DNA of 64,000 nucleotides from Narthecium ossifragum. Lineage: Eukaryota > Streptophyta > Magnoliopsida > Dioscoreales > Nartheciaceae. Of this stretch, positions 4,955 to 62,839 are shown in pieces. Location of the stretch: assembly GCA_963920575.1 (NCBI GenBank), contig OY986964.1, positions 12,026,663-12,090,662 on the forward strand, written 5' to 3'. A program made the translations under genes and the position numbers. The notes under the pieces are model-generated. The model had not been told where the DNA came from, ran no database searches, and worked only from the letters and a program-made list of their open reading frames with translations. How positions within the stretch are numbered: the stretch's first letter is position 1; every line of letters begins with the position of its first letter.

Positions 4955-6280
4955 TCACGGCTTCCGCAACGCCACTGCCACCACCACGGCGGCCGCCACC
5001 GCTTGCATCCGGGACCACCTCTTCCCCTGTAACAAATTCTAACTACATTACCGGAAAATTCAAACATATATTCGAATTCAAGTTTAAAATGCGAGGTGTT
5101 AGTTAGCTACCATCGCCGACGAGATAGAGTAATAACCGGTTGAAGAAGCCGCGGCGTGATGCAACGGTGACTGCGCGCCGGAGCTGAAGCCGCTGGTGTT
5201 CCCGCCGGAGTGCGGCGCAGAGGCGATGCCGAGCTCGTAGGCCGGTGAACCGTCCGGCCTGAAGAGGCCGTAGTGCCGCTCCGACGACGGCCCAGGCTTC
5301 ATGTCCTCATTGAACAGCGCGAACACGTAGACGTGGAGCGGCGCCGTCGGCTTCATCGGCGTCCCCTTGCCTTCCGTCACCATCCTCATGAGGTTCCCGT
5401 TGTACCTTATAGCGTTCTCGATCGTCGCCCCCGCCTCGTCGTCGTCTCCGGCCGAAGGCCACCCCGTCTCCGAAACCCTCAGCTCCACCGCCGCCCCACT
5501 CTTCCCCTTTCCCCCCACCGCCGCGATCGCCGATCTCACTGCGTCGACCTGCGCGTGGAGCATGTTGTCGTACCTCAACCCCGATCCGGGATCCACCACA
5601 CCGGAGTTGGGCTCGAACAGGACGTAATCGAGCGGCACTCGTTTCGGATCCGCCTTGTAGGCGAAGTACGGGTATGCATTGATTAGGAACGGCGATCCGG
5701 TCTCTGCGAGGAATTCGAGGAGGGGAGATATGTATGGGATGAGATCTCGCCGGAAGGCACCGGCGGAAGGGGGATAGGAAGTGGAGAGGATGGCGAGGGA
5801 GTGCGCCGTGGTGACCGCCACCTGGTGGTCGAGATTCAGAGAGGCAAGGGAGGCTCGGACGGATTTCATGGCGGGGAGCAGGGACTCGGCGACGGCGGTG
5901 TCATTATCGGAGAGGACCTCGTTCCCAACAGTGACGGCCACGATTCGGGTTGCTGGCAGGTAAGCGGCGACATTGGTGCGGATCCAGTCGAGCGCGACGC
6001 CGCGGTCGCGAGCGGCGGAAACGACGCATTCGTCCGGGAGGCCAATGACGAACTCGACGCCCGTCCCGGCGAAGGCCCGGAGGACGTGGGGGTCGGCGTC
6101 GTAGAGCTTAATGCGGCCCACACCCAGAGAGACGAGTAAAGGTGCCACCCTCTCCGGCGTCGGAAGGTTGTCGGCGACCCGGCCGTAGTTTATTCCCAGC
6201 ACCGACGGCGACGCCGGGTAGCAGGAGATCACGCGGAGCAGCAGAAGCAGCAGCAGGAGCAACAGTGGATGGACGGCCAT
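4955..6280 (-). CDS. Glucan endo-1,3-beta-glucosidase (GH17), GPI-anchored type
   Basis: A GH17 beta-1,3-glucanase that cuts callose-type glucan in the cell wall. Exon 1 is 6280-5111 (390 codons); an 84-bp intron (5110-5027, GT...AG) follows; exon 2 is 5026-4955 (23 codons plus TGA). Total is 413 residues. Residues 1 to about 20 are a leucine-rich signal peptide. The domain starts at VLGINYG (28-34). The acid/base is E121 in VTVGNEVL and the nucleophile is E271 in VSETGWPS; LFNEDMKPGP and HYGLF follow. There is no X8/CBM43 module. The tail is a Ser/Gly-rich linker, then a hydrophobic AVAAAVVVAVAL segment in exon 2, as expected of a GPI-anchor signal. Ignoring the intron gives a 393-residue protein that lacks this tail. 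Comparable Arabidopsis proteins act at plasmodesmata or the wall; which subfamily this belongs to is inference. Confidence 0.93.
5027..5110 (-). other. Intron of the glucanase gene
   Basis: The donor is ATG/GTAGCTAAC at 5110 and the acceptor TTTGTTACAG/GGG at 5027. It is phase 0 and 84 bp long. Reading through it meets TAA after three codons, so splicing is needed for the GPI tail. Confidence 0.8.
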
Positions 6281-11197: not shown

Positions 11198-13937
11198 TGT
11201 CACGCCGCGACCCAGAAAACCCATCCGGGCCGGGACGTGAGGGTCCTAAACTCTAAAATCAAACGGCGAGAGCCTCCCCTATAAACATCACTTTTAAACC
11301 TGGTGCATGATTACAATATTCACAATTAATGTAAACTATCCTATCATCAAATCATAATACAAATTAACGACTACAATACTCAATTAACTTTAAAAAAATA
11401 CAATAATGATTCATATCCTCTAAGTACAACAATCTCTGATCAATTTACATCAAATTGAAATACAAATACATTTCTCCTTCAGATTACAATTTATACATTT
11501 AAAGCTGTATATCAATTGAATAGAATAAACTGATGATATCCTCGATCTCACGCACCACCAAGGGGAGTACCGCCTCCAACACCGCAACTACCTGAAAAAG
11601 AAGGGACTGCATCGACCTGCATCGCCGATGCAGGCCATGTAGGAGTGAGCAACAAAGCTTGCTCAGTAGGGTTCTACGCTATTCTACGTCGCACAGAAAG
11701 GAAGGGAAACAGCAACAGTGTCGTTTCTCCGCCTAAGTCTAAAGAATGTCACGGGTCCCATAACCCTATCAATGTCCCAAGGGTTCCTGTCATGAAACCT
11801 CTCTCATGAACATGTTACCAGGAGGCCACGGAACAGTAACACACAGGATCACTCTTACCCAAGCAGGATTCTCATGCCTTGGGGAACTACGTCGGGAACG
11901 CATCGACAACCATCCTTAGCACTTGGCCTTGGAGAAGTGACACGACCTCTAAACCTCAAACAATATAATATTCCAGTCTGACTACTTAATAATCCTCGAA
12001 TGATATCAAACATGATCATTGATGATAATCACGTCCTAATCCTCGACTACCCAAACCCCGGTCCTAGGACTAGATCCGGGTTACCCGAGAACCCCGGACC
12101 GACGATCGAAACCATCGCCTACCACCTAGCCTAATGCTTCTAATGCAAACATATGCATGCAATGCTCAGGCATAGGAATACAGGAATAGGTAGCATGCAA
12201 CAATATGCCAAGACAACATACACGGGCTAGGCGAAGCATCAAGCTTGCCGGAGGGTAATCATAGCAAGGGTTCAAGCAATAAGGATTTATCTAGCAAAGC
12301 TATAATAACAAGTATCCAACAGATCAAAATCCAGCATTACAACGGCGTCCACAGCCGTCAACCGCAATTTCTACAACGGGGGCACAACCCCGACCACACA
12401 AATAATAATCAAACACATCTGCAGTATACAACAGGCCACAATTACAAATTAACATCAACTAGGGCACACCTTCGGCCATTTAATTAGCTAAACATCTCAA
12501 TAGGCACAACTCCCTTGGTTCAACCACAAGCTAAGTATACATGTAAATAAGCTTGACATGTAATTAATTGCTAATTAAACAAGGACGATTTATAGTTAAC
12601 TAAGCATGCCGGCATCAAACAATTAATCATCTAAGAACCACCAATTAGAACATGCTAATCCTTGAGATTACTAGGAATACTAATTTCATGCATCTAGAAG
12701 AGTTAAATACGATAAAACACCGAAAATCCGCTAAATAGCCAAATCCCAAATTTCTACATTAAACCCTAGTTAGAGGCGATGAAATCTCATCAATTCGACG
12801 TCCAAACGACGTCGAATTGGAAATTAAACTTGGGCAAATGTAGATTAGCATACTAGGAACATGTAGCCCAAGAATTGGATTAATCTAATGGCTAATCTTC
12901 CCGGAGTTCACTAATCAGTTCGCTAATTTCGGTCTCGTCGCAGATCCGAAGAATAATCACCATAAATCGTAGAAAACTCTGAAAATTATGAAATCAGCGG
13001 CAAATGAAAGTAGATTCGAAGATCTACAAGTCTTGTGTTGATGATCAAACGAGATCATGCACGTATGAGCCACGATCTGAGCTTGAACGGCTCAGCTTGC
13101 AGAAAAACAGAGCATCAATAAAATCCGGGAAAAACATACTTAAATCCGGCATAAATCGAAATCAAATCCTCCCAAACTTAGATCAGTTGTTAAGCATGCT
13201 TAGAGGGACTAATTAACACACATAAAACCATAGATCTAACAATCAAACCCTAGATCTAGCTCAACCCTAAGATTTAGGTAGAAACCCTACCTTAAACGCA
13301 AATCCAAGCTTCAATCCGCCGTGATCCACCATCCCCCATTGTCGCCGTCGTCTCCAGCTCACCGGAGAGCCGCCGGAGGCCTCCCATAGCCGCAGCCGTC
13401 GTCGGAGAAGGAAGAGGGCTGCCCGCGGAAGAGAGAGAGAGGGGGAAGGAGGAGGAGGAGGGGACCTCGCCGCCGCCTCCAGGCCGCCGGGGAAGGGACG
13501 GGGTCGCCGCGGGAGAGAGAGAGGGTAGCCGCGGGAGAGAGAAGGAAAGGAAGGAGGAGGGAGGTCGGGCACGGGAAAGCAGGGAAGAGAAGGAAAAGAA
13601 AAGGAAAGGGAAAAGAAAAGGAAAAGAAAGAGAGAGGGAAAGAGGAGAGAGAAGAGGGTTAGCCGGTTCAGACGAGTCAACTGATCGGACTGAATCCGAT
13701 CTGGCTCCAAGTTGCGATCTCTACTGGATCTACTCAATCACGTACATCAATCAAGGTCGTGTGTGCATTACGAGGGTGTGAAACTAATCGCCAAGGCGCA
13801 ATTTCCCAAATTGTTCTTCAGGTCCAAAAATCGCGATGCGATCAACCGATCGCAATCCAAGGCCAACCGGGCCAAACCACAAAACCAGACCCTCGACCTA
13901 CCATGGTAGGATCGGGTTGGAGGAACGGGTCCTCACA
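11198..13937 (-). mobile_element. Solo LTR (Ty3/gypsy type), LTR-1
   Basis: On the minus strand it starts TGTGAGGACCCG at 13937 and ends GGCGTGACA at 11198, giving 2740 bp. The flanks are CGCCT (11193-11197) and CACCT (13938-13942), a 5-bp duplication with one difference that is a CG to CA change, as expected from methyl-C decay. There is no internal region, so it is a solo LTR. The ends match the other TGTGAGGACC...TGTGACA LTRs of this window. It contains one perfect 12-bp-arm hairpin (12791-12819). The 13267-13737 ORF is purine-rich LTR sequence, not a gene. Confidence 0.85.
12791..12819. repeat. Perfect 12-bp-arm hairpin in LTR-1
   Basis: CAATTCGACGTC and its exact complement are separated by CAAAC, 29 bp in all. 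Size and layout resemble the single units of the hairpin arrays in the other LTRs, but with a GACGTC core and only one copy. Confidence 0.8.
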
Positions 13938-18795: not shown

Positions 18796-20228
18796 TGTGA
18801 GGACATGTTCCTCTAACCTGCATTGATTGCGTAGGTCGAGGGTTGTTTTCCTATTGATTTGGTTCCGCGTCGGGTGCGATCCGGCTATTGTATTGGCATT
18901 TTGGACCCTAGGGGCAATATGGTGGTCGGTTTTACACTCGCGTGTTATGCACACACTGTCTTGGATTGATGAATGTGATTGATTAAAACCTTCGGGGTGC
19001 TTCTGATCGGAGATCGAATCGGACGACGGAGATCGTTTCAGATCTCAATAAATACCCCCTTCTCTTTTCTCTTTCTTTTTCTCTCCATCTCTCTCCTCTT
19101 AGCTGTTGGCTGGTGCTTGGACTGTGGCTTTTCGGCGCGGATCCGCGCCGATCGGAGTGGAGGATCTTGTAAATCGCCTGCACGTCTATACATGTAGGTG
19201 TTCTACCCAATTCCTGTGAAATGGTAACCCTAGGATTGATTGATTTTGCTTTGGTGTGGTTTTATGTGTTGGAATGGTTTGTAATCTTGTATTCTAGTTC
19301 TTTGTTAAGTGTTACACGTTGCTATTGTGTCGTTTCTGTATTCTATCGGATGAATTTTGTATTTTTGTCGGTTTTTCCGCTAGATCGGCTCAGATATGAT
19401 ATTTGACGATTTAAGTGTGGTTTTTATTCCATGAATGGAACCCCACCATCCAATATACATTCCCTCAAAGTTTGAGTGGATTTCATCGCCGTTTGATAGA
19501 TCAAATCCACGTAATTGAGTTTTCGTCGGTTTTGTCGGTATTTATGCAATTTGTCTAAAATATGAGGATTTGATCATGTAAATTTGGATTTCTTGGTTTC
19601 GTTAAATTCCCCACACCCAATTGCATATCCCCTCCAAGTTTCGTTTTAATCCAACGAGTTTTGATAGATCGAATTAAAGAAATTGGATTCACAATACTAT
19701 TTATAAGTGCTGCAGGTATGAAGAAGGATTGATCTTCAAGTAGGCTGTCGACTATGAAGGATCGATCGAATTTTTGTGAGTTAGCGCTCCGTCCCTTCTG
19801 AAGAAGATCGATCTCTTTTTTTCTAGACAGTGCATCCACTTTGGGAAGATCGATCTTCCTGGATAGAAAGATCGATATCTTCTGTTCCAGACAGAAGACC
19901 CTCTTGTAGAAGATGTATCTTCATGGGACATGAAGATCTATCACTTGCTTTGATGGTGGTTGGCTACGAAGAGAAGATCGATCTTCACAGGATATGAAGA
20001 TCGATCTCTTGTTTGCTGCTAACACATTTTGATCAGATTTCGTTGTTCTCGATTTCTTTTTGACCTGATCTTCTTGTGTTGTAGGTTGTTAGAATTACAG
20101 TTCTATCATTGGAAGTCATTTTGTTTAAATTAACTCTAATTTTCGCTTGTATCGCGCAAGTTGTATGTGAATAGTAGTAGGTCTCCTCACGCTCTGGTTC
20201 AGATGGGTTTCTGGGTCGAGGTGTGACA
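18796..20228 (+). mobile_element. Solo LTR, LTR-2
   Basis: Begins TGTGAGGACATG and ends GAGGTGTGACA, 1433 bp. Exact 5-bp duplications GAATC flank it (18791-18795 and 20229-20233). There is no internal region. TATA-like CAATAAATACC lies at 19046-19055. A hairpin array begins about 700 bp further downstream (19728-20006). It is inserted in the LINE's 3' part. Confidence 0.9.
19728..20006. repeat. Palindromic hairpin array in LTR-2
   Basis: Units made of GATCGATC (or a 1-2-base variant), 14-15 bases, then GATCGATC again start at 19848, 19912 and 19976, exactly 64 bp apart; a diverged half unit lies at 19806 and another unit near 19728. The 14-15 inner bases pair as well (TTC.../...GAA). Spacers share a CAGACAGAA-type motif, the complement of the CTCTGTC seen in other arrays. 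Confidence 0.8.
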
Positions 20229-20233
20229 GAATC

Positions 20234-20574
20234 CTTCTATTGATCTCAAGAACATTATCTTGGACTTCCTCATACACTAACAAACATCGCAATTTTCACA
20301 ATCACCAAAGGGTATATGCAACCAAAGATTTCACCATCTTCGTCTCCTCATCCTTTGAACTTTTACCCAGTAATTGGAAGCAACGATCAACATCCCACAT
20401 GGACAAATCAACGCTTGCATGAGCCTGCATTATCGTCGGCCACGCCTGTATAGTAAAGGGACAATAGAAAGATATATGCTCAAGAGTTTCCTCCCCCCTG
20501 CGGCATTGATGGCACACCTTGTCGCTTGTCATGTATACATCCCACAACGACGACAGGGTAGGCATGTCACACCC
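20234..20574 (-). pseudogene. LINE ORF2: zinc-binding (zf-RVT) domain, second half
   Basis: The minus strand reads DKVCHQCRRGEETLEHISFY then CPF, the CxxC...H...C core of the plant reverse-transcriptase zinc-binding domain, and runs on to about 20302. The domain's first half (WRAPAGPQVKFFLWRLVRSKLP) is at 26026-26190. The two join in frame once the LTR insertion between them is removed. Confidence 0.8.
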
Positions 20575-22207
20575 CGACCCAGAAAACCCATCCGGGCCGG
20601 GGCATGAGGGGAAACCTACATTATTTACATCCGATACGGCGTGACAAATACATAAAGTGGAATAAATTTTGAACTTAAAGACTTCCAAGGGCATAAAGGT
20701 AAAACTAAATATTACATTGCGGAATAAAACTCAATCAAAAGAGGGAACATAATTTCATATATTAAACGTTAAGTACATCATCCTCAAAAGGTAACTTTAA
20801 ACAAAAGCTGTCAAAATATACATCTGTCCCTCTGAGACCTCAAACGCCTCCGGAAGTCAACGCGCCGCCAAGACCTGATCCAGCTGGAATTGCCGAGGAT
20901 GAGCTAATGCCTGCACCTGCAAACGCAGCCCGGGTAGGAGTGAGCAATAAGCTCAATAGGGTTCTACTCTACTCTACGTCGCACAGGAAAAAGGGGAAAC
21001 TACAAAGTCCCGGGTTTTGTCTCATCTGTAAGGGAAACTCATGTTACGTCCATCGCCTACCCCAGGACACGCGCTCTGTGACCTCAACTGTCAACAACTG
21101 TCCCTCTCAACCACCAAGCGCCCAACGCTGAACAACAAAGGGGTAGGACCCAGGGCAGCACGTAACTTCCCTTAACACAGATACTGAGCATGAGACGAGA
21201 ACTCTGGGCGATCTCTACACCTCAAATAACAGATGATAGCCAACTAGACCCATCCTCGAGAATACAGAGATTTGGCATAACAATCACGCCCTAGTCCTAG
21301 CTACCCAGCCACGGTCCTAGAGCTAGATCCGAGCTACCCGAGAGGCTCGGATCGGCGAAGACCCTATTCACCCGCACCCTAACCTTATGCTCTAATGCAA
21401 ACAAGATGCATGCCATGCTCAGGCACAGATAAAGAGATATAAGCATGCAACAATATGACATCAATTATACAGGGCTAGGCATAGCCTATAGCTAGCCAAA
21501 GGGGTGAGCATAGCAAGGGTCTCAAATACAGATAAGCTATACTAGCAATACAACGATTAGAGCAAAGCGATAAACACAGATATACAATAGTCTTCAGTGC
21601 TCTCTTGCACATGACAGGCTAAGATTCCACAGTTACCCCGCAGGTAACTGGCCAACAGCCAAGTGACAATAGCAATGGAGCCAATTTCGGCATTACAACG
21701 ACGTCCACAGCCGTCAACCGAAATTGCTACAAGGGGATACAACCCCGGCCAAGCCAACAAGCCACACATACAAGATATATATGATCTACCAGTACAACGG
21801 GTTATGCCCTCGGCACACGTCGGCTTTCAGTGGGGCTATTAATCAAAGCAGTAGATCTATACTAGGCATACAGGGCACACCTCCGGCCCATTTATACTAA
21901 ACATTCCCGGGGGTCGTCACTCCCCCGATTACCCATAAAACGATAAAACAATCACAAACTATATATATATATACACATATATATAGATATAGCATGCTCA
22001 TCGAGAAACTGCTTGAAAATCGGTAGAAATCGATAAACCGATTTGAAATACAACTTACAGCGTAATCCAGAGATAAACAAGTCAAAATCCCGATTAAAAT
22101 ATTATAATAATCCTTACATATCATCGGGAAAGCGACATGAGAAATTCGGGTCGAAAAGAAACCGAAAACATCAAATTCGGATCAATTAGACAAATCAACA
22201 TATAAAG

Positions 22208-22552
22208 GATCGATCATCTTACCCAAGATGATCGATCACTTACATGAGTGATCACTGTCAAGGAGATGATGATCGATCTTCCCTTCCAAGGACGATCGAT
22301 CTTCCTTAAGAGTGTTTCGTGCGTGGGAAGGAGGGATCGATCTTCTTTCACAAGACGATCGATCTTCCTTAAGATGGCGTTCTGTCTGGGAAAGACGGAT
22401 CGATCTTCTGGCAGCAGAAGATCGGTTTTCCTCAAACACACCCCCTGTCAAGAAGAGGAACGATCTTCTTGTCCCAAGAAGACCGATCTTCTTTAGACGG
22501 AGCAGAACACTAACAAACGAAAGATCGATCTTCTTCCCAAAGAAGATCGATC
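22208..22552. repeat. Six-unit palindromic hairpin array in LTR-A
   Basis: Units start at 22208, 22271, 22335, 22398, about 22459 and 22523, so the spacing is 61-64 bp. The best units are exactly 30 bp (22208-22237, 22335-22364, 22523-22552): GATCGATC, a 14-base inner inverted repeat such as ATCTTACCCAAGAT, then GATCGATC. Units 4 and 5 keep the inner stem but have lost parts of the outer palindrome. Spacers carry CTGTC motifs. Each unit folds as a 12-13-bp stem with a 4-base loop. Confidence 0.92.
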
Positions 22553-23474
22553 CTTCATATGTCGGCATGGAAGATGAATAGTGTCGGAAATCAATTTTCT
22601 TAGATTTAACCTATCAAAACATATCGAAATTAAACCAAACTTGGTAGGCATGTGCAGTTGGATGTGGGGAATCTAATGACACTAAGAAATCCAACTTTGG
22701 ATGATCAAATCCTTCGAATTAAATCAAATTATTCGAAAGCCGACGAAACCGATGAAAAACTGAATTTGTTGGATTTGATCTATCAAACGGCGAATGAATC
22801 CATTCAAACATTGCATGAAGGTCTATTTGATGGTGGGGAATTCATTCATGTTATAAAAACCAAACTCAGATCGTGAAATATCAGATCTGAGTCCAACCCC
22901 GTCGAAAAGCCGACAAAAATATGGAATTCATCCGAAAGAATACAGAAATGAAACCATAGCTAACTTCTAAACATGCTAAGGAGCAAGAATACCGAAAATC
23001 AAGACATTCCAATACATACAACAGTCAGAAAACACAAAAAGGCAATCCTAGGGTTACCATTTCACCAGAAATGGGTAGAAACACCTACATGTATAGACGT
23101 GCAGACGATCTACAAGATCTTCAAGTCCGATCGCTGTGGATCCACGCCGAAAAGCCACAGCCGAATCCCCACTCCGGCAGCCAACGAAGGAGAGAGGAAG
23201 AGAGAAAGAGAAGAAAGAGAAACAAAGAGAAAAGAGAAGGTTTAAATAGAAAGCTGGAATCGATCACAGCCGTCCGATTCGATCTCTCCCGATCGAGCTC
23301 TGATTTTCCGATCGGAAGCGCCCTTAAGGTTCTAATCAATCACATACACCAATCAAAGGCAGTGTGTGCAACGTGGGTGTGAAACTGACCACTAGGGAGC
23401 ATATTTACCAAAATGCCACTGGGGTCAAAAACAGCGATGCGATCAACCGATCGCATTCCAAGGCCAACTGAGCC

Positions 23475-25951
23475 TGTCACACCCCGCCCCAATTAAATAC
23501 AATTTATCCCAAAATTACTCAAAATTTTGGCATGACCCTTTGGCACGGGCACATGAGATCACAATTTACAACCTGTTAAAAGATACAAACCACACATCCT
23601 ATAACATTTTATCCAATATTTACAACATATTTCTTTCATTCATTCACATATTTCTTTCATTCATTCATGTACATAGGATTATAGTCATCAATTACATGAT
23701 TTAGCCACGAGACTACAATAAACAATTTTCCCAAATTCCAGCATATACAAAGCGTCAAATACATAAATTGAGAGTTAAAGGTAGAGTACAAAATAACCTT
23801 GGGGTACAGCCCACATCTCTCCACCTACTACAAAGCTAACTCTCAATTACTAAACACAAAATGACGCCTCGTCACTGCTGACCACCTCCCTGGGGTGTAC
23901 TGGTCTCGGGCCTACCACCTGCACAACAAAAACCCAAGGAAAAATGAGCTCAGAAACCCAGTAGGAGTCACCTGACACACTCTAGGACACTGGTGTACAC
24001 CCACCTATCCTAGTATACTGCCCAAGTATGGTCTGGCTAGTATGGGTAAGTCTTACATGCACAGCACCGCGTCTGGCCGCCAACGCTAGCCCATACCCCT
24101 ATAGACTCTATACCCGGTCCTAGTATACTAGTATAGGTACAACATCCTATACTAGCTTACTGATCCTAGTATGGTCTGGCTAGTCTGGGTAAGTCTTACA
24201 CGCACAGTCGCCGCGTCTGGCCGTCAATGCTCGCCCAGACCCCTATAGACTCTATACAGGCCTTAGTATACTACTATAGGTCCAACATCCTCAATCAGAT
24301 CAAATCCTCAAGTCAGATCCTCAAACAGATCAAATCCTCAAGTCAGGTCAAAGTCCTCGATCGACATACGGAGATGAAAATCCATCCGTCAAGTCATCGA
24401 CATAGCCCTAGACTCTGACTAGTCTAGCTACAGGACCTGACTAGATCCAACCACAACCTATCCTAAGACAAACCTGACATTCCTAGCATGTATGCACAAA
24501 TCACATAAATAATCGATCAATCAATAAAATGGTCAATTTAATCTCATTAAACATACATATAGGATATCATCATATATATAACATAACATGTCATAAATAA
24601 GCTTGTAATGGGCTCAACTCGCCCAACAAGCTCTAGCACAACAAATACATTATCATGACATACAATAGCATCGCATAAACATACAAGATTAATAAAGTAC
24701 ATACATAAATATAACATGGCATCAACATATTTATATAGCAAACAGAGCACAACAAATCCTAGGAGGTAACTCCTACCTCAAGGAAGCAATCCAAGCGTAA
24801 ACTCTAAGTCCAGGAACCAACGTCACGCTCCGATACTTGACGGCCGCTCAATCGATCACTTAAAGCACAAAAATCAAGATTATGATCAAGTAGAGCTCCA
24901 AACGCCGTTAAATCTACTAAAACAGGTAGAGTTTGGAAAACCGGTCGAAACGACATGAAGATCATCGAAATGGGACATCAGCGCTTCGCACACAGGGGCA
25001 TGCGCGACGACTCCGCCCACGGGTGGACCAGCCCCTCAGTGTTTCCAACGCGACGGAATCTGCCGCACCGACGACGGACTCCGCCGCGCCTGTGACGGAC
25101 TCTGCCGCGCTAGCGACGGAAACTGCCGTGTCTACGATGCGTCTGCGACGACCCAACCCCGGTGACGCGCACCCTTCCGCCAAGAAGGGCCGCCGGAGCT
25201 CCGTCGAAGCTCCACTGATCTCGGGCTTAACTGCCGGACAACCACCACTGTGAAGAGAGGGAAGAAGCTTGCTTGCTGCCCCAAACACCGGATCCCGAGG
25301 AAGATTAACGGCCACGGCCAGAGGAAGACCGGCCGGTTCTTCGCCGGAATCCATGGCAGGGATGAGGAGTAAGGTCCCCCCGGCATGGGAAAACTCCCAA
25401 ACAGGGCTCGGAGAGATATCCCGGACAACGGGGGTCCTTCGTTCGACGCTGCAGTCGCCGAGGGAGGTACTCAACGCCGTCCACGGTATCTTCTCCGGCG
25501 ACCCATCGCCGGAAAAACCACAAAACTCCAAACCCTCACCCAAACACTCCGGGAAACCTACAAAAACAACACGGAATCGAAGGATGGAGAAAGTAGAAGC
25601 TCACCTCCGACGAGAATGGGAAGAAATCTGGCGGAAAACTCCACTGGACCTTTACTTCCCAGTGAGCACCACTACCCCACCTCTCGATCTCTGTCTCTCT
25701 TCCTCGATCCCTTCCTTCCTCTCCAGCTCTCTCCAGATCTCTCTCTCTCTCGATCTCTTTCTCCCGATCTCTCTCAATCTCCCTCTATCTCTCTCTCGGG
25801 TTGGCAGCCAAAATGAAGAGAAGGAGAAGACTGGATTTGTCTAGAAGGGTGGGGGTGGTTTTTCCAGAAAACCCCCCGAAAAACACGAAATTACACGAAA
25901 GGTCCCCTAAATCTTACAGAAAAAACCCTTAAATGCAAATAGGTCCTTACA
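23475..25951 (-). mobile_element. Solo LTR nested in LTR-A (LTR-B)
   Basis: Starts TGTCACACCCCGCCCC at 23475 and ends GGTCCTTACA at 25951, 2477 bp. The flanks are GAGCC (23470-23474) and AAGCC (25952-25956), a duplication with one mismatch. Removing it restores an alignment of LTR-A to LTR-1. It lacks the GATCGATC array and instead has a 143-bp two-copy repeat (24001-24288). ORFs at 24933-25844 are LTR sequence with no motif I recognise. Confidence 0.82.
24001..24288. repeat. Two-copy 143-bp tandem repeat with paired arms (LTR-B)
   Basis: GTATGGTCTGGCTAGT starts at 24026 and again at 24169. Each copy has a long-range stem: GTATGGG/CCCATAC (24040-24046 with 24090-24096) and GTCTGGG/CCCAGAC (24183-24189 with 24234-24240). 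The one base that differs on the left arm is matched by a compensating change on the right. Each copy also holds GTAAGTCTTAC, a small perfect hairpin. Confidence 0.85.
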
Positions 25952-26581: not shown

Positions 26582-28011
26582 TGATGAGTCACTAAATGTT
26601 CATGATTAAACCCCTTAACTTAGCTTTGTTAGGCCTAGAGTGTTTGTATTTGATAGCTTGTTAGTTGATTTCAGGTTTGATCATGCTTTGAGGAGAAATG
26701 CAAGAAATTCGATTAATATGCTGAAATACACTGCTCTGTCGACTGTTAGCACAATATTCACCAGATATTATCCTTAAGTCCAAATATTCTGAAATTTGGG
26801 TAACATCTAGAAGACATCAAGATGTACAACTTTCATGTTGAACACTTTCAGAGATTCCAGATGAATTGATAGCAGTTTTGAAGAAGATGGAGATATTTAG
26901 CTGCTGGAAGACTGGTCAATCGACGCTCGGGAGAATATTCGTCAAATATTCTAGATAAGTTCAAATATTACAAACTCTTTGGAAGAAGACAGAAGACTTC
27001 CAAATCTACATCTTTTGTGTTGGACTCATTCTCAAAATCCGAACTGGTTGAGCCCAGTCGCGATTAGAAGAAGCTGTTAGGGTTGGACCAGGAATTCCGA
27101 GTTGCACTTGAGGTCTAACTTAACCTTGAAACCCTAATCCGGGAATTAAGATATAAAAAGGGCTTTGTGGCTGGAAAACCAGAGGCCTCCATAGAGAGAA
27201 AAAGAGGGATTCAGATTGGAGAAGAAGACGGAGATGTGGTGTGGATCCCTAACCTTCTTCATCGAATACATGGATCTCATCCAAAAGATGAGTGGCTAAT
27301 CTTCTAGTTCTAGGGATTTCATGAAACTCTAGTGTAACTTTTTGTATTTTCTAGTTGATTCTTGTATTTCTTTCTCATAGACATGATCTTATGGATTTGA
27401 ATTTATTGATAATGGAGTTGATGGAAGTATTTCCCTTGACGTATTTTGTGTCCTACTTGATTGCTGTGCTTGATGGTAGAGTTCCATAAGATGGTTTTCA
27501 TGTGGTTTTTGACATGCTTTTGAGATAATCTATGCTAAGTAAAGATAGATTGTACTTAGGTTAAGTCCGAAGATAATCTATGCTACACGAAGATAGGTTA
27601 TGCCTTAGGTAGTCATTAACTTTCTTTTAGGGTTTCATGTGAGCTTAAGAAGCCATGATTCCATAATGTCTAGAGAAGAAGCAAGATGATAGCTAGAGGA
27701 TACAGGAAGTAAAGCTAGAGTGGATTGAGGGATCCCTAGGTTGTTTCTCTCATTGATCTACTTCAACCTTTTCATTGCTTTTTCAGTAGTTTAATTCCTT
27801 AGATAACAAAACCATTGAAACTCCTTTTCTTCGCTTTAGGATTTGAGTTTAGAGATTTAATTTGATTTCTTCTTTTGTTAAACAATCTTTTCCTGTGGTT
27901 CGACTCCGGATCTCACCACTGTTCTACGTTTGTAGAGTAGTATTGATTGAAGGATTATAAATTCTAAATTGCGTTTTGCATCTGATTTAACGACGCATTT
28001 GCGAGCGATCA
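26582..28011 (+). repeat. 5' LTR of the Athila-like element
   Basis: Starts TGATGAGTCACT and ends GAGCGATCA. A TATA box GATATAAAAAG lies near 27150-27160. No GATCGATC hairpin array is inside it, but CGATCG-type palindromes occur just downstream, at 28215-28290. Confidence 0.92.
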
Positions 28012-28014
28012 ATT

Positions 28015-28408: not shown

Positions 28409-31400
28409 ATGCAAGGCAGACGATCCCTACATAATCCGTTGGAACCTTTGGATCTAGAAATAGAGACCACACTTCGAGCTGCTAGAACCTTAGCACAAAA
28501 ATCTCTAGATAACTATCAGGAAGCCATAAGCAACTTGCAATCCTTACTGGCTGAACACGAGGAACATGTCATTGACCCTAATGATAATATGGGTAGGGGT
28601 GGAAATGATCACAATAATAGAGAAGTTCCAATTAGGAATCACTTCTTACCTGGACCTTATACCTATGCTTCTTGTATCAACCCACCTACCATCAATGCTA
28701 CCCATAATGAGATTAAGCCTAACTGGATTACAGCCTTACCTTTTTTTTATGGGCGTGAGAATGAGGATCCCTATGGACACATTGCTAGCTTTCTTGAAAT
28801 CCTTTCTATGTTCAAACTTCAGCATTTTAATGATGATGCCTTTAGACTCAAACTCTTCCCTTTTTCTTTGAAAGATAAGGCTAAACATTGGCTCCAAACC
28901 TTAGCTCCAAATTCGATTTCAACATGGGACCAACTTCAGAATGCTTTCCTTAAGAAATATTTCCCGATCATTAAAACTCAAAATTATCGAACCATGATTA
29001 TCTCTTTTAAGCAAAATGAAGATGAGATGTTTCATGAAGCTTGGGAAAGGTTTAAGGATCTTCTTAGAGAGTGTCCCCATCATGAGGTACCTGAGTGGCA
29101 GTTAGCCCATTCATTTTATAATGGTCTTAATGATCGTTATAGGATAATGGTCGAAGCTTGCTGCGGGGGTGTTGTTCTTAGTAAGCCATGGACTGCCCTT
29201 TGGGAAATGTATGACAATCTTGCTGAAAATTCACAACACAATGCCTCAGTCTCTAGGAGTTGGTCTACCACTGTTCGTAATTCTCGGGGAATTCATGAAA
29301 TTTCTGAAGTCCAAAGTCTCTCCGCACAAGTAGCCCTCCTAACTAAAGACTTAAACCAGTTTAAAACAAGCCAATCTCTTGCTCAACAATTGCCTAATAC
29401 TTCTCTTGAAATATGTGCCCTTTGCCTTAATTCTGGTCATCATATCACTGATTGTCATCTGGCCCCCAATTTCCCTGACTTTGTTCAGGAACAAGTTAAT
29501 GCAACTTATGATTTTTCCAAACCTCAGAACAACCCTTATTCGAATACCTATAATCCAGGTTGGAGAAATCATCCTAATTTTAGTTGGAAGCCACAACCGT
29601 CAAGTAACTTTCAAGGGCAAAACAATCCAGCTAATACTTCTACTCTCAAGTACCCACCTAAATCTTTTGCATATCCAAACCCTGGGTACTCTTCACATTA
29701 TCCACAGAATACCTCTCAACCTCCTCCTCCTAAATCATCAACTGAGCCCACTTTAAATTCAATCATGAGTACACTTTTAGAGATGAGAGGTGATTTCAAT
29801 AGGGACATGTCATCCATGAAGGTCGAAATTTCAACTGTCAAAAGTGATGTCTCCTTGTTGACAAACAATTTATCTTCAACGATTCAATCCGTATCAAATT
29901 TAGAAAAACAAGTTGGGCAGCTATCTAACAACATGGCTAGAAGAGAGGAAGGGCACCTACCGAGTCAACCTTTACCCAATCCAAGAGGCCTACACCACGT
30001 AGAAAGCCAAAATTTTGAAAGTGCCAAGGCCGTAGTGACCCTTAGAAGTGGAAAAACCGTTGACAATCATGTAGGGGAACGAACATGTACCGATCGATTG
30101 GACACAGTTCCGATAGATCGGCCGTCAGACGACCGATCGGTATTCCAACCGATCGATCGGACGGACGGTGGTGACCCAGACAACCCACTTGATTCCAACC
30201 TCTCTGATTCTAGGGAATCTAACCCTTTCAAGTATACACCTAGGGTACCCTTTCCTGCGGCCCTTAAGGATCCCTATCCAACTATCAAAGCCCGAAGAGC
30301 TGTAGAGGACGCCCTTGAAATCTTCAAACAGGTCAACATCAACATACCATTGCTTCATGCCATTCGTCAAATCCCTTCATATGCCAAATTTCTGAAGGAT
30401 CTGTGCACTCATAAACGCCAGACAAAACCCAACAGAGACAAGAAAATCCTTTTACCTGAACAAGTTAGTTCGATTTTGAGACATGACACGCCACCCAAAT
30501 TAAAGGACCCTGGTACCCCTACCATACCCTGTTGCATAGGAGACTACCTGATTGATGGTGCCCTTCTTGACCTAGGAGCCAGTGTTAACATTTTGCCCTA
30601 CTACCTTTATAAGGAATTTGGGATGGAAGAACTTAAACAGACATCAGTGATTTTGCAATTAGCTGACAGGTCCATTAAGACACCTAGAGGTATAGTAGAA
30701 GATGTTTTAGTTAAAGTGGATAATTTTTTCTTTCCGGTTGACTTTGTTGTCTTAGATATGGAACCTGTTGTCCACTGCAAAAAGACTGTACCCATTATTT
30801 TAGGACATCCGTTTTTGGCCACTGCTAATGCCTGCATAAATTGTCGAACTGGTGTGATGGATGTTTCTTTTGGTAATATGCATGTTAAATTGAATATCTT
30901 TAAGACTGCATGTTTGCCTGAACATGAGAATGAATGCTTTCATGTTGATAGTTTGACGGACTGCTATGATGATAAGTCTCATGTCATAATGAATGATAGA
31001 TTGCCTACAATTTGGGATGAATACGATTTTGGTTATAATGATTATGATCTTAAACTGTATGATGATAAATTGCCTATAATCTGGGATGAGTATGATTCTG
31101 AGGATGATGATGTTGAATTAAAGAATGAAATTTTGCTTGATATTTTGAATGACTATGCTTCTGACTCTGATGAGGATGTTAATCGGGACACTGCACAATC
31201 GAAATATGATATCAAAACACACATCTTGCCCGACCAATCACTCGATCGGCATACTGTGGAGACAAAAACTATTTCTGGGATGGTTGAACCCCTTTCCCCG
31301 CTATCTTTTACTCCCACACCTGTGATAGATACGGGCCAATTGTGTGCTTATTATGCCGACACTCACCTTTGCACAGATGCGGCAGTATATCCTAAGGTTG

Positions 31401-31738
31401 AGCCACCTCCTCTTTTCTCTATATCTGCACCATCATCACTGCTTTCACCGCGTCTTTTATCTATATTTGACCTTTCACTTCCGGTTCACCCGATTGATAG
31501 TTTCACTATTCTGGAGGACACATACTGTAGACCGGGGTGCAAGATGAAACATGACGATAGGTTGCCTTTTATAGAGGGTGGGGTCTCTAGTTCTCTTGTT
31601 GGGAGGAAAAACTTTGTTAGCCTACATCATCAACTACTTGATTTATTGTGGGGTTGGGTTTGGTTTCAAGCATTATATGGAGGAAATTATTTTAAGTGGG
31701 GTGATCGATTCCATCATTTAGACGGATCCATGCTATAA
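28409..31738 (+). CDS. gag-pro: Athila-type gag-protease polyprotein (1109 residues)
   Basis: Capsid and protease polyprotein of the Athila-like element, fully open. Retrotransposon gag domain is at about residues 105-255 (WLQTLAPNSISTWDQLQNAF, LKKYFPI). A zinc knuckle C336-x2-C339-x4-H344-x4-C349 follows, then a Pro/Asn-rich linker. The aspartic protease has its active-site region at D721 (LLDLGASVNILP), with DLGAS instead of DSGAS, usual for Athila-like elements, and a later IILGHPFL. After the protease comes an acidic region with an imperfect repeat of (K/R)LPxIWDEYD, then a tail of unknown role; no reverse transcriptase follows. Around residues 555-590 the coding DNA holds a cluster of CGATCG palindromes (30085-30165), as in the LTR arrays. 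Confidence 0.92.
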   Translation: MQGRRSLHNPLEPLDLEIETTLRAARTLAQKSLDNYQEAISNLQSLLAEHEEHVIDPNDNMGRGGNDHNNREVPIRNHFLPGPYTYASCINPPTINATHNEIKPNWITALPFFYGRENEDPYGHIASFLEILSMFKLQHFNDDAFRLKLFPFSLKDKAKHWLQTLAPNSISTWDQLQNAFLKKYFPIIKTQNYRTMIISFKQNEDEMFHEAWERFKDLLRECPHHEVPEWQLAHSFYNGLNDRYRIMVEACCGGVVLSKPWTALWEMYDNLAENSQHNASVSRSWSTTVRNSRGIHEISEVQSLSAQVALLTKDLNQFKTSQSLAQQLPNTSLEICALCLNSGHHITDCHLAPNFPDFVQEQVNATYDFSKPQNNPYSNTYNPGWRNHPNFSWKPQPSSNFQGQNNPANTSTLKYPPKSFAYPNPGYSSHYPQNTSQPPPPKSSTEPTLNSIMSTLLEMRGDFNRDMSSMKVEISTVKSDVSLLTNNLSSTIQSVSNLEKQVGQLSNNMARREEGHLPSQPLPNPRGLHHVESQNFESAKAVVTLRSGKTVDNHVGERTCTDRLDTVPIDRPSDDRSVFQPIDRTDGGDPDNPLDSNLSDSRESNPFKYTPRVPFPAALKDPYPTIKARRAVEDALEIFKQVNINIPLLHAIRQIPSYAKFLKDLCTHKRQTKPNRDKKILLPEQVSSILRHDTPPKLKDPGTPTIPCCIGDYLIDGALLDLGASVNILPYYLYKEFGMEELKQTSVILQLADRSIKTPRGIVEDVLVKVDNFFFPVDFVVLDMEPVVHCKKTVPIILGHPFLATANACINCRTGVMDVSFGNMHVKLNIFKTACLPEHENECFHVDSLTDCYDDKSHVIMNDRLPTIWDEYDFGYNDYDLKLYDDKLPIIWDEYDSEDDDVELKNEILLDILNDYASDSDEDVNRDTAQSKYDIKTHILPDQSLDRHTVETKTISGMVEPLSPLSFTPTPVIDTGQLCAYYADTHLCTDAAVYPKVEPPPLFSISAPSSLLSPRLLSIFDLSLPVHPIDSFTILEDTYCRPGCKMKHDDRLPFIEGGVSSSLVGRKNFVSLHHQLLDLLWGWVWFQALYGGNYFKWGDRFHHLDGSML

Positions 31739-34414: not shown

Positions 34415-35844
34415 TGATGAGTCACTAAATGTTCATGATTAAACCCCTTAACTTAGCTTTGTTAGGCCTAGAGTGTTTGTATTTGATAGCTTGTTAGTTG
34501 ATTTCAGGTTTGATCATGCTTTGAGGAGAAATGCAAGAAATTCGATTAATATGCTGAAATACACTGCTCTGTCGACTGTTAGCACAATATTCACCAGATA
34601 TTATCCTTAAGTCAAAATATTCTGAAATTTGGGTGACATCTAGAAGACATCAAGACGTACAACTTTCATGTTGGACACTTTCAGAGATTCCTGATGAGTT
34701 GATAGCAGTTTTGAAGAAGATGGAGATATTTAGCTGCTGGAAGACTGGTCCGTCGACGCTCGGGAGAATATTCGTCAAATATTCTAGGTAAGTCCAAATA
34801 TTACAAACTCTTCGGGAGAAGACAGAAGACTTCCGAATCTACATCTTTTGTGTTGGACTCATTCTCAAATTCCGAACCGGTTGAGCCCAGTCGCGATTAG
34901 AAGAAGCTGTCAGGGTTGGACCAGGAATTCCGAGTTGCACTTGAGGTCTAACTTAACCTTGAAACCCTAATCCGGGAATTAAGATATAAAAAGGGCTTTG
35001 TGGCTGGAAAACCAGAGGCCTCCATAGAGAGAAAAAGAGGGATTCAGATTGGAGAAGAAGACGGAGATGTGGTGTGGATCCCTAACCTTCTTCATCGAAT
35101 ACATGGATCTCATCCAAAAGATGAGTGGCTAATCTTCTAGATCTAGGGATTTCATGAAACTCTAGTGTAACTTTCTGTATTTTCTAGTTGATTCTTGTAT
35201 TTCTTTCTCATAGACATGATCTTATGGATTTGAATTTATTGATAATAGAGTTGATGGAAGTATTTCCCTTGACGTATTTTGTGTCCTACTTGATTGCTGT
35301 GCTTGATGGTAGAGTTCCATAAGATGGTTTTCATGTGGTTTTTGACATGCTTTTGAGATAATCTATGCTAAGTAAAGATAGATTGTACTCAGGTTAAGGC
35401 CGAAGACAATCTATGCTACACAAAGATAGGTTATGCCTTAGGTAGTCATTAACTTTCTTTTAGGGTTTCATGTGAGCTTAAGAAGCCATGATTCCATAAT
35501 GTCTAGAGAAGAAGCAAGATGATAGCTAGAGGATACAGGAAGTGAAGCTAGAGTGGATTGAGGGATCCCTAGGTTGTTTCTCTCATTGATCTACTTCAAC
35601 GTTTTCATTGCTTTTTCAGTAGTTTAATTCCTTAGATAACAAAACCATTGAAACTCCTTTTCTTCGCCTTAGGACTTGAGTTTAGAGATTTAATTTGATT
35701 TCTTCTTTTGTTAAACAATCTTTCCCTGTGGTTCGACTCCGGATCTCACCACTGTTCTACGTTTGTAGAGTAGTATTGATTGAAGGATTATAAATTCTAA
35801 ATTGCGTTTTGCATCTGATTTAACGACGCATTTGCGAGCGATCA
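34415..35844 (+). repeat. 3' LTR of the Athila-like element
   Basis: Same length and ends as the 5' LTR, with about 28 substitutions counted by eye. Confidence 0.92.
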
Positions 35845-36375
35845 ACTACGTCCTACCATAACCTGAGAATACACGATACCGACAGTCACTACATGCAGCG
35901 TGCATCAGAGGTTTCACGGGATAAAACCCTAGCCTTGTCTTACCACATCCCTAAAAGTATGCAATACCGGCTGTAACCACAGGCAATGCATAGCAAAGGT
36001 TTCATGAGACTAGATAGGAGAACGAAAGAGATAACCATAGGATCACAATATCATAAAAGAAGCATTACTGGAGTTATAATAATGTTCAACCACGTAGTAA
36101 TCTGTAAAAATCCGATACATGTATAGAGTTTAAACATTAAAGATCAAAAAATGAACCAATGATGAAGAGAAAACCCTCGTCCTTACTCAGTCATCCGTCC
36201 GCCATGCCTTGAGGATTTACTCGGCCATGGAGATGAAGATTCTCCTCTTTCCTTTGCCTCCAACTACTCTCCACCGTCCTCATTGAAGAACTCTAAGTCT
36301 TCTATTTTATAGCCCCTAAGGCTTCTCAAACTTGGATGAAATTTGGGCCTTTATTTTTCTCTTTTGTCAAACAAA

Positions 36376-39693: not shown

Positions 39694-42112
39694 TGTGAGG
39701 GCCCGTCCCTCTGACCTAGCTCGACCGCGTGGTCGAGAGCCGGTTTCCTGTTGGTTTGGTTCCGCGTCGGGTATGATCGGGCGATCGTGTGGCGGTTTGG
39801 ACCTCGGGGGCATTTTGGTAAATATGCCCTCTGGTGGTCGATTTCACACCTGCGTTCCACACACTGCCTTGAATTGATGTATGTGTTTGATTAGAATCCT
39901 TAGGGTGCGTCCGATCGGAAGATCGGAGCTCGATCGGGAAAGATCGAATCGGACGGCTGAGATAGATCTGGATTTTCTATATAAGCCAAGTCCCTTTCTC
40001 TCTTTCCTTCTCTCCTTCACCTGTCGTTCTCTTCCCTTCTCTCTCTCCTTCGGTTGAGGTAGGGTTTGGAGACTTGGTCTTCGGAGCTCGGATCTTGGTG
40101 GCTTGACCAGCGGGACGCGTGGAGGAGCTACCCTACTTGCTCAAGTAGGTGTTTCTACCTCGATCCTTGGATCGGGTTCTCCTAGGATAGGTTTTATGTA
40201 CTTTCGCTATAGAAATACATGTTAGAATGCCTTGTAGCTCCTTGTATATGTGATGTTGCTCAATTCCGGTATTCTTACGTTGAGATTTCTGTATTCTAAC
40301 GGTTGGTTTCCGTATTATCGCCGTTTTGTCGGTTTTCGTCCATTTGGACCTAGACAGGAGATTTAACCGTCGAAAGCTGGATTTATTCTTTCCATTAGCT
40401 TCAGCTTTGCTAAATACACTTGCTTGCAAAATCTCATCTTGTTCCAACTTGATTTGATCCTTGAAATCCAAAGAAATGGATTTTCGGCACTGTTCTGATG
40501 AACTGTGCCAAGGGCTCGACGGTCGATTGGTGCATCGACCGTCACATGTTGTTTTACGCTTTTTGGGCCTGGCGGTCGACCGTCGGATCGACCGTCAGGC
40601 TCTGTCGGGATTTTGGCCTCCGACGGTCGATGGGTCGATCGACCGTGGGTTCTCTCTCCTTTTCATCCCGCCTCACGGTCGACCGTCGGAGCGACCGTCG
40701 CATCGTCCGTGAGGCTCTGTCTCGTTTTGGGCTTCCCACGGTCGATGGGCCGATCGACCATCGCCCAGGTGGTTTTCCTCGTTTTGGCGTCACGGTCGAT
40801 CGCCGGATCGACCGTGACATCATCTGTGGTCGCACGGTCGATCCACGGATCGACCGTGACATCGTCCGTGACCCTTTGGACTTGGTTTTTTGGCTTTTCT
40901 TGGATGGATTTGATTGATGATTAGTATCTAAACATGTTGGGAAGCATGTAGGTGGATTTGATGAGGTTTTCAAACGATTTCTACCGGGTTTGAGGATCGA
41001 CTCGAGTGATTCTCCTTTTTGGGCAAATCTATGGTTTATTTGCATTTAATACATTGTTGATGGTAGTTGAATGTTTAATTATTTGCTTAGCCATTAACCA
41101 GCGATGAGTGCTAGTTAATGAGGAATTGTGGAACCTTAGCCTCTTGCCGGCGAGTGTCGAGAGCTATTGTATATCTGTTGGACTTGTAACTGCTGATGTG
41201 GCATATAGAGACATCTAGGATAGATGTTTGCCTAGGCCCATGCATTGTGTGCATTAGAGGCATTTGAGGTTAGGCGGGGGATGGTTTGGGTCGCCGATCC
41301 GAGGCTCTCGGGTAGCTCGGATCTAGCCTTAGGGCCGTGGCTGGGTAGTCAGGAATAGGGTGTGATCTTGAATCATCTGAATCTCTTGTGATTGAGGATT
41401 GCGATAGTTGACTTGAATCAGTGTTTGAGGTTTAGAGGTCGTGTTGTCTACAAAGGCCAAGTGCTAAGGATGGATGTTGATGCGTTCCCGACGTGGTTCC
41501 CCAAGGCTTGGTATTCCAGCTTGGGTAAGGGTGATCCTGCATGTTACTGTTCCTTGGCCTCCTGGTAACTTGTTCAGGAGAGAGGTTTCATGACAGGAGC
41601 CCTTGGGACATCAACTGGGTTATGGGACCCGTGGCATCCGTTAGACTTGAGCTGGGGGACAACACTGTTGTTGTTTTCCTCCCTTCAGTGTGCCGTAGAG
41701 TAGAACCCTACTGAGCTTATCGCTCACTCCTACCCGGGCTGCATTTGCAGGTGCAGGCGGCAGTTCTTCCTCGGTGGAGCCGGCAGGATCGGCTTTTGGC
41801 GGCGCGAGTACATCCAGAGGCGCTTGAGGTTGCTGGAGGATGATCTGTTGTACTCTTTTGATATATATGTATATGTTGTAACATTCTGAGGATTTTGGAT
41901 CATGTATATATGTCTTTACCTTGGGAGTATTAGAATGGAATTTTGTAACCGTACAACTTGATGTTATATGAATTGAATCAGTTTCGCCTCTGGAATACAA
42001 TTGTTTAAATTTACCCGTCTTTTCCGCTTTGTATCGCGCCGATTTGAAGATGAATAGTGATAGGAACCCTCACGTCCCGTCCTGGATGGGTTTTCTGGGT
42101 CGGGGTGTGACA
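39694..42112 (+). mobile_element. Solo LTR in the LINE endonuclease domain (LTR-5)
   Basis: Starts TGTGAGGGCCCG and ends GGGGTGTGACA, 2419 bp; TATA TCTATATAAG at 39976-39985. The flanks TGCCT and CGCAT match at only 3 of 5 positions, so the duplication is decayed. LINE endonuclease coding lies on both sides (VVYA before, a WEVLERVN-type helix after). It carries a hairpin array with a different core (40518-40860). Confidence 0.82.
40518..40860. repeat. Seven-unit hairpin array with ACGGTCGAT core (LTR-5)
   Basis: About seven units start near 40518, 40573, 40624, 40676, 40738, 40792 and 40834. The best have arms of 9-11 bp around a 6-base loop: GACGGTCGAT/ATCGACCGTC (40518-40543), and TCACGGTCGAT with its complement (near 40790-40817). 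Spacers carry GGCTCTGTC and GTTTTGG. The layout is that of the GATCGATC arrays but the stem sequence is different. Confidence 0.88.
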
Positions 42113-55935: not shown

Positions 55936-56517
55936 GTGTATGTCTTTCGCTTTACTGATATGCTCCTTGTGACCAGTGGCGGAGAGTTGCCGCTGTGGGA
56001 AGAGTTCAGGGCGATGTTCCTAGACGTGCACTTTCCAGCTAGTGCACGTGATTCCCTGACCCGCGAGTACCAGTCCCTTCTACAGGGTACTCGCACAGTT
56101 CAGCAGTACGCCTCCAGGTTTACCCAGCTTGTCCATTTTGCGGGGGCAGTTGCAGCAGACCCCGTAGCCAGGGTGCGGCAGTTCGAGTGGGGACTCAGGC
56201 CAGAAATCCGGCGGCAGACAAGCTCACACTGCTTCCAGACGTACCCGGCGATCCTGAATTGCGCCTTATCAGTGGAGGCGCAGTTGCGGGATGACAGGTA
56301 CCGGGCAGTTCCACCGGTACCTCCCACCAGCACACAGCATCGACCCCAGGGCAGGGGTTGGTTCGGCAGAGGGCAGCAGCGGCGCCAGCGACCCTTTCAG
56401 CCGCAGCCGCCGCGTGCACAGCAGTACCAGCAGTCACTACCGAGTCCACCGTGTTTTCTCTGAGGGCAGCTAGGGCACTTCCGTAGAGACTGTCCCCAGC
56501 GAGGAGCGCGAGGTGCT
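55936..56517 (+). pseudogene. gag: Ty3 gag, N-terminally deleted, stop in the zinc knuckle
   Basis: Only the C-terminal half of the gag domain is present (LWEEFRAMFLDVHFPASARD, GTRTVQQYASRFTQLV). The N-terminal half, present in the related gag at the right edge (DPPRFNGRSGDP), is missing, so a deletion lies between the primer site and 55990. The CCHC knuckle ([17 protein letters not shown]) has TGA at 56461-56463 exactly where its second Cys should be. Otherwise the frame runs into pol. Confidence 0.85.
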
Positions 56518-58734: not shown

Positions 58735-58758
58735 GGATCCAGCGGCTTCCTCTACGCA

Positions 58759-62624: not shown

Positions 62625-62839
62625 CCTCTTCCGCAGGAAGCTAGACTTGGGTTAAAACATAAACCCAAGCTCGGATCTTTTGATCCCGGGTCCACCTAAC
62701 CATTCTACTCAAGCACATACACCAAAACAAGGCCTGTTTGTGCACAAGTGGGTGTGAAACAAACCAACAAGGCGCAATTTACCAAATTGCCCTTGCAGGT
62801 CAACGATGAGCCACAGGAATAGAGGAACGGGTCCTCACA

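Follow-up and report, generated by a model that had tools for sequence, protein, structure and literature searches.

The window analysed here, a stretch of 64,000 nucleotides from Narthecium ossifragum, contains at 22208-22552 an array of six hairpin units inside an LTR (F1), as had been claimed in an earlier note on this DNA. Six further LTRs or LTR parts of the F1 clade are present in the window, namely F2 twice, F3, F4, F5 and F6. The features are listed below, and the word GATCGATC, which recurs in most of them, is referred to as the core.

11198-13937, minus strand: LTR F5, without an array, with one perfect 12-bp hairpin at a similar place
12791-12819, minus strand: the hairpin of F5 (stem of 12 bp, no GATCGATC), spanning +1119 to +1147 of this LTR
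18796-20228, plus strand: LTR F4 (short), related to F1; hairpin units at about 19848-20007, in an array similar to that of F2
20565-23474, minus strand: LTR F1, which holds the array; many genomic copies match it as far as 23474 at one end and 20565 at the other
22208-22552, minus strand: F1 leader array, six GATCGATC hairpin units
23241-23248 (reads 23248-23241), minus strand: TATA-like box TATTTAAA of F1
39694-42112, plus strand: LTR F3, related; TATA-like box at 39978-39985
40518-40858, plus strand: F3 leader array, seven hairpins with a different stem of the CACGGTCGATC-N4-GATCGACCGTG type
53580-55817, plus strand: 5' LTR F2 of a Ty3-type element; TATA at 53916-53921, PBS-like TGGTATCAGAGC at 55821
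53795-53892, plus strand: F2 promoter cluster, four GATCGATC cores (two 22-bp pairs) directly upstream of the TATA
54267-54498, plus strand: F2 leader array, four 30-bp units
55936-60171, plus strand: F2 ORFs for gag, PR-RT-RNaseH and integrase; RT before INT, the Ty3 order
60096-62261, plus strand: 3' LTR F2, 97.6% identical to the 5' LTR, end missing
62500-62839, minus strand: start of LTR F6, with a 22/23-bp phased core cluster and mostly weak inner pairing

At 23474 F1 is truncated at its start and gives way to another LTR-like end, TGTCACACCCCGCC; several genomic F1 copies run on past this position to a TGTGAGGACCCGT-like start. At 20565 the LTR terminates in GGGTCGGGGTGTGACA. The F1 copies L056 and L062 carry CTATAAATA at +283/+287. 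The F2 element was classified as a Ty3-type LTR retrotransposon based on its direct LTR pair (TGTGAGG...GTGACA), a PBS-like TGGTATCAGAGC that begins at the fourth base after the 5' LTR, and gag plus pol genes with RT/RNaseH before integrase. We take the PBS-like sequence to be a match to the initiator tRNA-Met. The core clusters of the 3' LTR, at 60311-60408 and 60783-61014, are as in the 5' LTR. The F2 LTR ends and the integrase tail presumably resemble Tekay, but the integrase C-terminus has no Chromo match in Pfam at E values up to 5, and the element is not filed in the chromovirus Tekay lineage.

Several other sequences were observed in the window. An 18-bp tandem repeat with 6.6 copies lies in the F2 ORF region (56676-56793), and a 143-bp tandem repeat is present twice at 24004-24291 (86% matches), adjoining a 17/30-bp repeat at 24287-24362. 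A second repeat pair, 98% identical (26582-28012 and 34415-35845), probably represents the LTRs of another element and has no GATC enrichment. The gag-type ORF 28409-31738 of another element contains four GATCGATC-like words with 19-20-bp spacing at 30092-30158 (GATCGATT, GATAGATC, GACCGATC and GATCGATC). On the strand opposite to this ORF, at 28982-29088 (minus), an Rfam scan of the window had its one match, the unrelated plant C/D snoRNA snoR71 (46.1 bits, cutoff 40), and nothing was returned for the array. An open ORF for a GH17 beta-1,3-glucanase is located at 5102-6280 (minus); its best named matches are from monocots (about 70% to date palm and coconut), with at most 71% identity among the 120 matches listed, which points to a monocot as the probable host.

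Each unit of the F1 array consists of two GATCGATC-type arms 22-23 bp apart, with arm starts at 22208/22230, 22271/22294, 22335/22357, 22398/22420, 22458/22481 and 22523/22545. Nine of the 12 arms are exact cores, the exceptions being those at 22420, 22458 and 22481. The unit spacing had been given as 63, 64, 63, about 61 and 64 bp; the first three values were reproduced, while the last two were measured as 60 and 65 bp. The unit length of 30 bp applies to four of the six units and is 31 bp in the other two. Similarly, the claimed 12-13-bp stems with 4-base loops are found at 22208-22237 and 22523-22552, which are perfect with 13 bp and a 4-base loop, but the other units differ: a third perfect stem at 22401-22424 has 10 bp, and the remaining ones contain mismatches. 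The placement of the array 700-1040 bp downstream of the TATA on the leader side was borne out, with a measured distance of 689-1040 bp on the minus strand. The respective distances are 346-582 bp for F2 and 533-880 bp for F3, and some cores are located upstream. One F3 hairpin is exactly 30 nt long, with a 13-bp stem and a 4-nt loop.

The F1 array is not due to chance, because the core is present 48 times in the window versus 0.94 times expected from base composition, the array strand has a fold z of -9.1 (0 of 100 shuffles as good), and 15 perfect hairpins (at least 10 bp, loop of 3-8) were found in the window versus 0-2 in each of 10 shuffles. Ten of these 15 hairpins are inside LTRs of the F1 clade and five elsewhere. 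Exact-core pairs less than 30 bp apart are spaced by 22 bp in 16 cases, by 23 bp in three and by 27 bp in one.

Genome counts were taken in the 379.4-Mb assembly containing the window. A first look yielded 777 F1 candidates; the F2 promoter piece had 3605 and the F3 array 4056, and 40 were scored in each group. The array is not confined to one LTR: all 38 other F1 copies retrieved contain it, in a search with the array itself as query, in which array-less copies would not appear. These copies have 3-6 recognisable units, some copies being truncated, and F1 copies occur on all of the contigs C1-C13. Identities are 80-92% for F1 copies and 95-98% for F2 copies. The pattern GATCGATCN{4,34}GATCGATC was found 94,953 times versus 140 times for the reversed control. 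In 68,158 of these pairs (72%) the gap is 13-15 bases (10 in the reversed control for N13-15), and a gap of exactly 14 bases accounts for 33,313 cases versus 3 in the control. Among 100 sample rows of the gap pattern 54 have a core spacing of 22 bp, and successive pairs mostly lie 60-73 bp from each other, continuous arrays giving a second group of 20-22 bp; the rows of this and the N14 search are from the first 3 Mb of contig C1 and are not a random genome sample. The F3-type pattern CGGTCGATCN{0,20}GATCGACCG has 4,070 matches versus 5 in the control, and among 50 places listed the gap is 4 bases in 48, 5 in one and 19 in one. Related LTR families carry arrays with different inner sequences and similar hairpins. 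Taken together, hairpin arrays are a real feature of an LTR clade and are present across the genome. A further array type was observed at C1:1482446-1482668 (L115), in which most cores are separated by 20-21 bp and inner pairing is scarce. A search of IMG/VR with GATCGATCN14GATCGATC yielded 34 stretches, with one place each.

The bases between the cores tend to be complementary. In 72 distinct inner sequences with a core spacing of 20-24, Watson-Crick pairing at inner positions 1-6 was 0.68, 0.67, 0.49, 0.57, 0.40 and 0.31, compared to 0.27-0.32 with exchanged partners. Positions 1-4 were above the maximum of 500 exchanges, positions 5 and 6 were not, and for the first inner base a local palindrome that extends beyond each core can also account for pairing. 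The paired fraction in F1 was 0.855 for all 202 units, and 0.875 for the 183 units of 30/31 bases, versus 0.708 with exchanged partners (maximum 0.739 of 1000).

The earlier note had argued that stems vary while pairing is kept, which would suggest selection on structure, and had proposed a count of compensating changes against shuffled controls. This count was performed on an alignment of 38 rows (37 F1 copies and the window; L068, one of the 38 copies retrieved, was left out as an identical duplicate of L067). Paired cells made up 95.0% versus 93.9% in shuffles, and 31 cells were changed on both sides versus 10.7 in shuffles (0 of 500 as high), so that the kept pairing was confirmed. However, 27 of the 31 cells are in three pairs, and 2 of 31 in core pairs, and neither the number of pairs having a double change (7 versus 5.1; 87 of 500 shuffles as high) nor that of further pair types (41 versus 40.3; 217 of 500 as high) is unusual. 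The signal stems mostly from unit 1 (U-A 19, A-U 10) and unit 3 (U-A 24, C-G 10; G-C 22, A-U 4, U-G 3). These counts do not establish selection on RNA structure. Wobble pairs were rejected as proof of RNA selection, because distinct sequences have no clear RNA-strand preference (GT 17 versus AC 15 in other families; 40 versus 29 in F1, p = 0.23). Counted over all copies, wobble leans to GT in the inner stem (58 versus 35) and not in the core (29 versus 34).

The most constrained part of the units is the core, and it is its sequence that is kept, because diversity and divergence in F1 are lowest there. In a set of 37 copies and the window, non-CpG diversity was 0.039 in the cores, 0.105 in the rest of the LTR, 0.153 in the array spacers and 0.157 in the inner segments with loops; CpG diversity was 0.122 in the core and 0.200 in the rest. 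Among 10,000 draws of 12 one-CpG 8-mers (mean 0.136), not one was as low as the core mean of 0.061. Likewise, divergence from the commonest base in the 38-row alignment was 0.021 for the non-CpG core, 0.081 for the inner stem, 0.100 for non-CpG spacers and 0.164 for loops. Other families have phased clusters of the same core in front of the TATA as well. Together with the constraint, these clusters fit a DNA-binding site better than selection on RNA structure. A sequence-specific site at the cores is well indicated, and an RNA role is possible.

It has been described that GATC words are the strongest plant enhancers downstream of start sites, and that a downstream GATC motif (consensus YVGATCBR) acts from downstream of the start site to raise transcription, each copy being associated with an expression nearly 50% higher (Voichek et al., 2024; PMC11525189). 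This effect peaks in the first 500 bp after the start and is minimal in front of it; in the scanned fragments every alteration of the GATC core reduced activity, and the motif is bound by GATA factors (PMC11525189). GATCGATC with a preceding A or a following T contains AGATCG or its complement. The published 6-mers occur 161 times versus 55.2 expected in the seven LTR pieces of the clade (about threefold), and in the 49.5 kb that make up the rest of the window they occur 188 times versus 166.5; for YVGATCBR the counts are 42 versus 10.6 and 45 versus 25.3, respectively. An unrelated LTR had 5 6-mers versus 7.1 and 0 YVGATCBR motifs versus 0.5.

With the arrays and the F2 promoter cluster removed, five families together retain 82 6-mers versus 35.0 (2.3-fold) and 27 YVGATCBR motifs versus 6.7. 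Because the excess persists without the arrays, the enrichment is not only a restatement of the arrays. For the 6-mers, four of the five families exceed at least 97 of 100 shuffles (F5, also enriched while lacking an array, 24 versus 10.2; F4 10 versus 3.7; F1 20 versus 8.9; F2 17 versus 3.8), and F3 does not (11 versus 8.4; 25 of 100 shuffles as high). For YVGATCBR, all five exceed at least 98 of 100 shuffles (F5 6 versus 2.0, F4 4 versus 0.8, F1 7 versus 1.7, F3 6 versus 1.5, F2 4 versus 0.7). The excess expected of downstream GATC enhancers is thus found in all five families, in F3 by YVGATCBR only.

The reading that we favour, tentatively and with slightly less than an even chance, is that the arrays serve mainly at the DNA level, as sets of GATC enhancer sites of the GATA-factor type, which would act from the leader, and that the hairpins would be made and repaired by template switching. 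As GATCGATC contains a sequence known to boost plant genes from within the transcribed region, the arrays are putative booster arrays, and the sequences suggest that such an array has spread through a mobile-element family. The arrays with their geometry and genomic numbers, the core constraint, and the excess of the published motif within and outside the arrays are observed, whereas binding of a GATA-type factor and increased transcription of the LTR are putative. A clade of Ty3-type LTRs would have multiplied a module in which two GATCGATC palindromes are separated by about 22 bp, i.e., two helical turns. This module is found in a phased cluster directly upstream of the TATA in some families and also in arrays of several units 350-1040 bp downstream of it. 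Each core contains overlapping GATC sites; sites of this kind are bound by GATA factors and raise plant transcription in a dose-dependent manner from downstream of the start site. The inner complementarity would be a product of template switching between palindromic arms and of unit duplication, and may additionally be used in RNA. The core constraint, the GATC excess with and without the arrays, the prevailing gap of 13-15 bases and the similar 21-22-bp spacing of cores on both sides of the TATA support this reading. Against it stand that the F1 array starts about 690 bp after the TATA, whereas the published effect is strongest in the first 500 bp after the start, and that cores of several families are upstream. 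Moreover, many cores fit the strict YVGATCBR on one side only (the F2 LTR has 38 GATC and 4 strict motifs), F3 with its array included is not enriched for 6-mers (12 versus 10.6), YVGATCBR is in 1.8-fold excess even in non-LTR DNA of the window, and 23 6-mers versus 10.8 fall in the F2 coding region. Nor does factor binding by itself account for the fact that inner pairing is stronger in leader units, or for their G-rich loops.

These last two features point to an alternative that is rather unlikely, namely that the leader arrays act as RNA hairpins, e.g., in dimerisation, packaging, translation control or strand transfer, and that the stems are under selection. Pairing at inner positions 1-5 is 0.67, 0.81, 0.48, 0.76 and 0.38 in 21 distinct leader units, compared to 0.73, 0.50, 0.42, 0.23 and 0.38 in 26 distinct units upstream of the TATA; positions 2 and 4 differ, and the mean fold energies are -16.6 and -14.1 kcal/mol, respectively. 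This comparison counted distinct sequences from ten anchors, of which L091 and L098 belong to the same element. At the LTR-anchored loci the upstream clusters keep the 21-22-bp spacing with weaker inner stems. The difference agrees weakly with a test on sample rows, in which isolated pairs surpass continuous arrays at inner positions 2-5 (178/312 versus 36/84, p = 0.026; energy p = 0.019), although some may be misjudged as isolated since the N14 rows hold 14-base gaps only, and although position 5 by itself pairs more in continuous arrays (0.62) than in isolated pairs (0.32). The fold z values of -9.1, -8.6 and -8.2 are in agreement with RNA hairpins. F3 retains a hairpin with another stem and arm spacing and with the nearly invariant 4-base gap, but such a constant gap would be just as compatible with a DNA operator built as an inverted repeat. 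On the sense strand the leader loops are rich in G (G51 A26 T23 C4 versus G34 C23 T33 A14 upstream), but the F3 loops are not; 14 F3 copies were picked from 39 other listed places, their sequences not having been looked at beforehand. Further points against an RNA element are the scarcity of double changes in core pairs, the lack of a clear GU-over-AC excess on the sense strand, one switch that proceeded via A-C and not G-U (G-C 22, A-C 7, A-T 4), and loops that are more divergent than stems or non-CpG spacers. Hairpins of 30 nt are probably too short for Dicer-like products, and on this general ground a small-RNA precursor was set aside as improbable.

The same paired changes can arise in another way. 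Template switching yields them without selection, and inverted loops are a listed footprint of the process (PMC8794818). Among the F1 alleles four exact reverse-complement pairs were found, three of which are known from a single copy each. In unit 2 the pair consists of CTTGGGACAAG and CTTGTCCCAAG (four copies: L050, L057, L066 and L075). The others are unit 1 of L079, unit 4 of L072 and unit 4 of L048, which has its partner in unit 1 and may have been copied from another unit. These inverted loops suggest that template switching has occurred at the hairpins, and paired changes alone are therefore no proof of selection on RNA structure. In its extreme form, for which we see a distinctly low probability, the arrays would be a mutational by-product without function: template switching and unequal copying, in the course of reverse transcription or replication, would have generated the palindromes, repaired them and increased their number. 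Besides the allele pairs, the replacement of unit 1 as a whole, additional arms in L075 and L077, and a documented mechanism (PMC8794818) speak for such an origin. However, it leaves unexplained why the core sequence is constrained, why core and spacing are the same in arrays with different inner sequences, why the core recurs at certain places in the LTRs, and why GATC is enriched outside the arrays.

VANDALs are DNA transposons. An array of targets for a sequence-specific anti-silencing protein, as in their VANC system, is very unlikely here: short tandem motifs in non-coding parts of the element and their turnover between related copies resemble VANC targets (PMC5735166), but the scanned F2 ORFs contain only gag, PR, RT, RNaseH and INT domains, and one core is common to many families, whereas VANC motifs vary between families. 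Hardly conceivable, and rejected, is an artefact in which GATCGATC, an 8-mer identical to the junction of a proximity-ligation library (PMC5288721), was built into the assembly at ligation sites, in view of the fixed spacing and recurring LTR places, the diverged copies of F1 and F2 with F1 on all of C1-C13, the CpG decay of the core, and the existence of a second array type with another core.

If the arrays of GATC enhancer sites are indeed what we propose, retroelements would exploit a plant-specific rule, that GATC sites act downstream of the start, via dense arrays, and about 95,000 core pairs would be spread through one genome. They would represent naturally graded series of enhancer arrays, on which the dose, spacing and phasing of GATA-type sites could be tested, and could draw host factors away from genes. 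Template switching and constraint would shape the same hairpins, and paired changes in repeated hairpins should be regarded as weak evidence for RNA function. A more far-reaching version, which we consider unlikely, is that one sequence-specific factor drove many LTR families of a genome to converge on the two-palindrome, 22-bp-phased module, and that this module has two functions, one as an enhancer array in DNA and one in the leader as an array of RNA hairpins kept perfect by template switching.

In the available parts of the literature on hairpin, palindrome or repeat arrays in plant LTRs (including PMC6911290, PMC3902901 and PMC5288721) no such array was found described, and several known systems share single features with it. 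VANC targets (Hosaka et al., 2017; PMC5735166) are also short recognition motifs that have been amplified as tandem copies in non-coding sequence of transposable elements and undergo turnover; in contrast to VANDAL, whose targets vary between related families, the present arrays are in LTR elements, share one core and have no candidate protein among the scanned F2 ORFs. The dimerisation and packaging stem-loops of retroelement leaders (psi/SL1; PMC3902901) are likewise hairpins in the leader, but the present ones, with a candidate RNA role, are in the LTR upstream of the PBS, are repeated several times and occur also upstream of the TATA. The hairpins attributed to template switching (Monttinen and Loytynoja, 2022; PMC8794818) have perfect stems, multi-base paired changes and inverted loops as well; those are in RNA genes, whereas here they form tandem arrays in retroelements with a constrained core. 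The downstream GATC motif (PMC11525189) shares with the arrays the GATC core, the same favoured 6-mers, the position downstream of the promoter and the presence of several copies per element. In contrast to the published motif, the sites with their putative function form doubled palindromes with about 22-bp phasing in LTR hairpin arrays, partly more than 500 bp downstream and partly upstream of the TATA.
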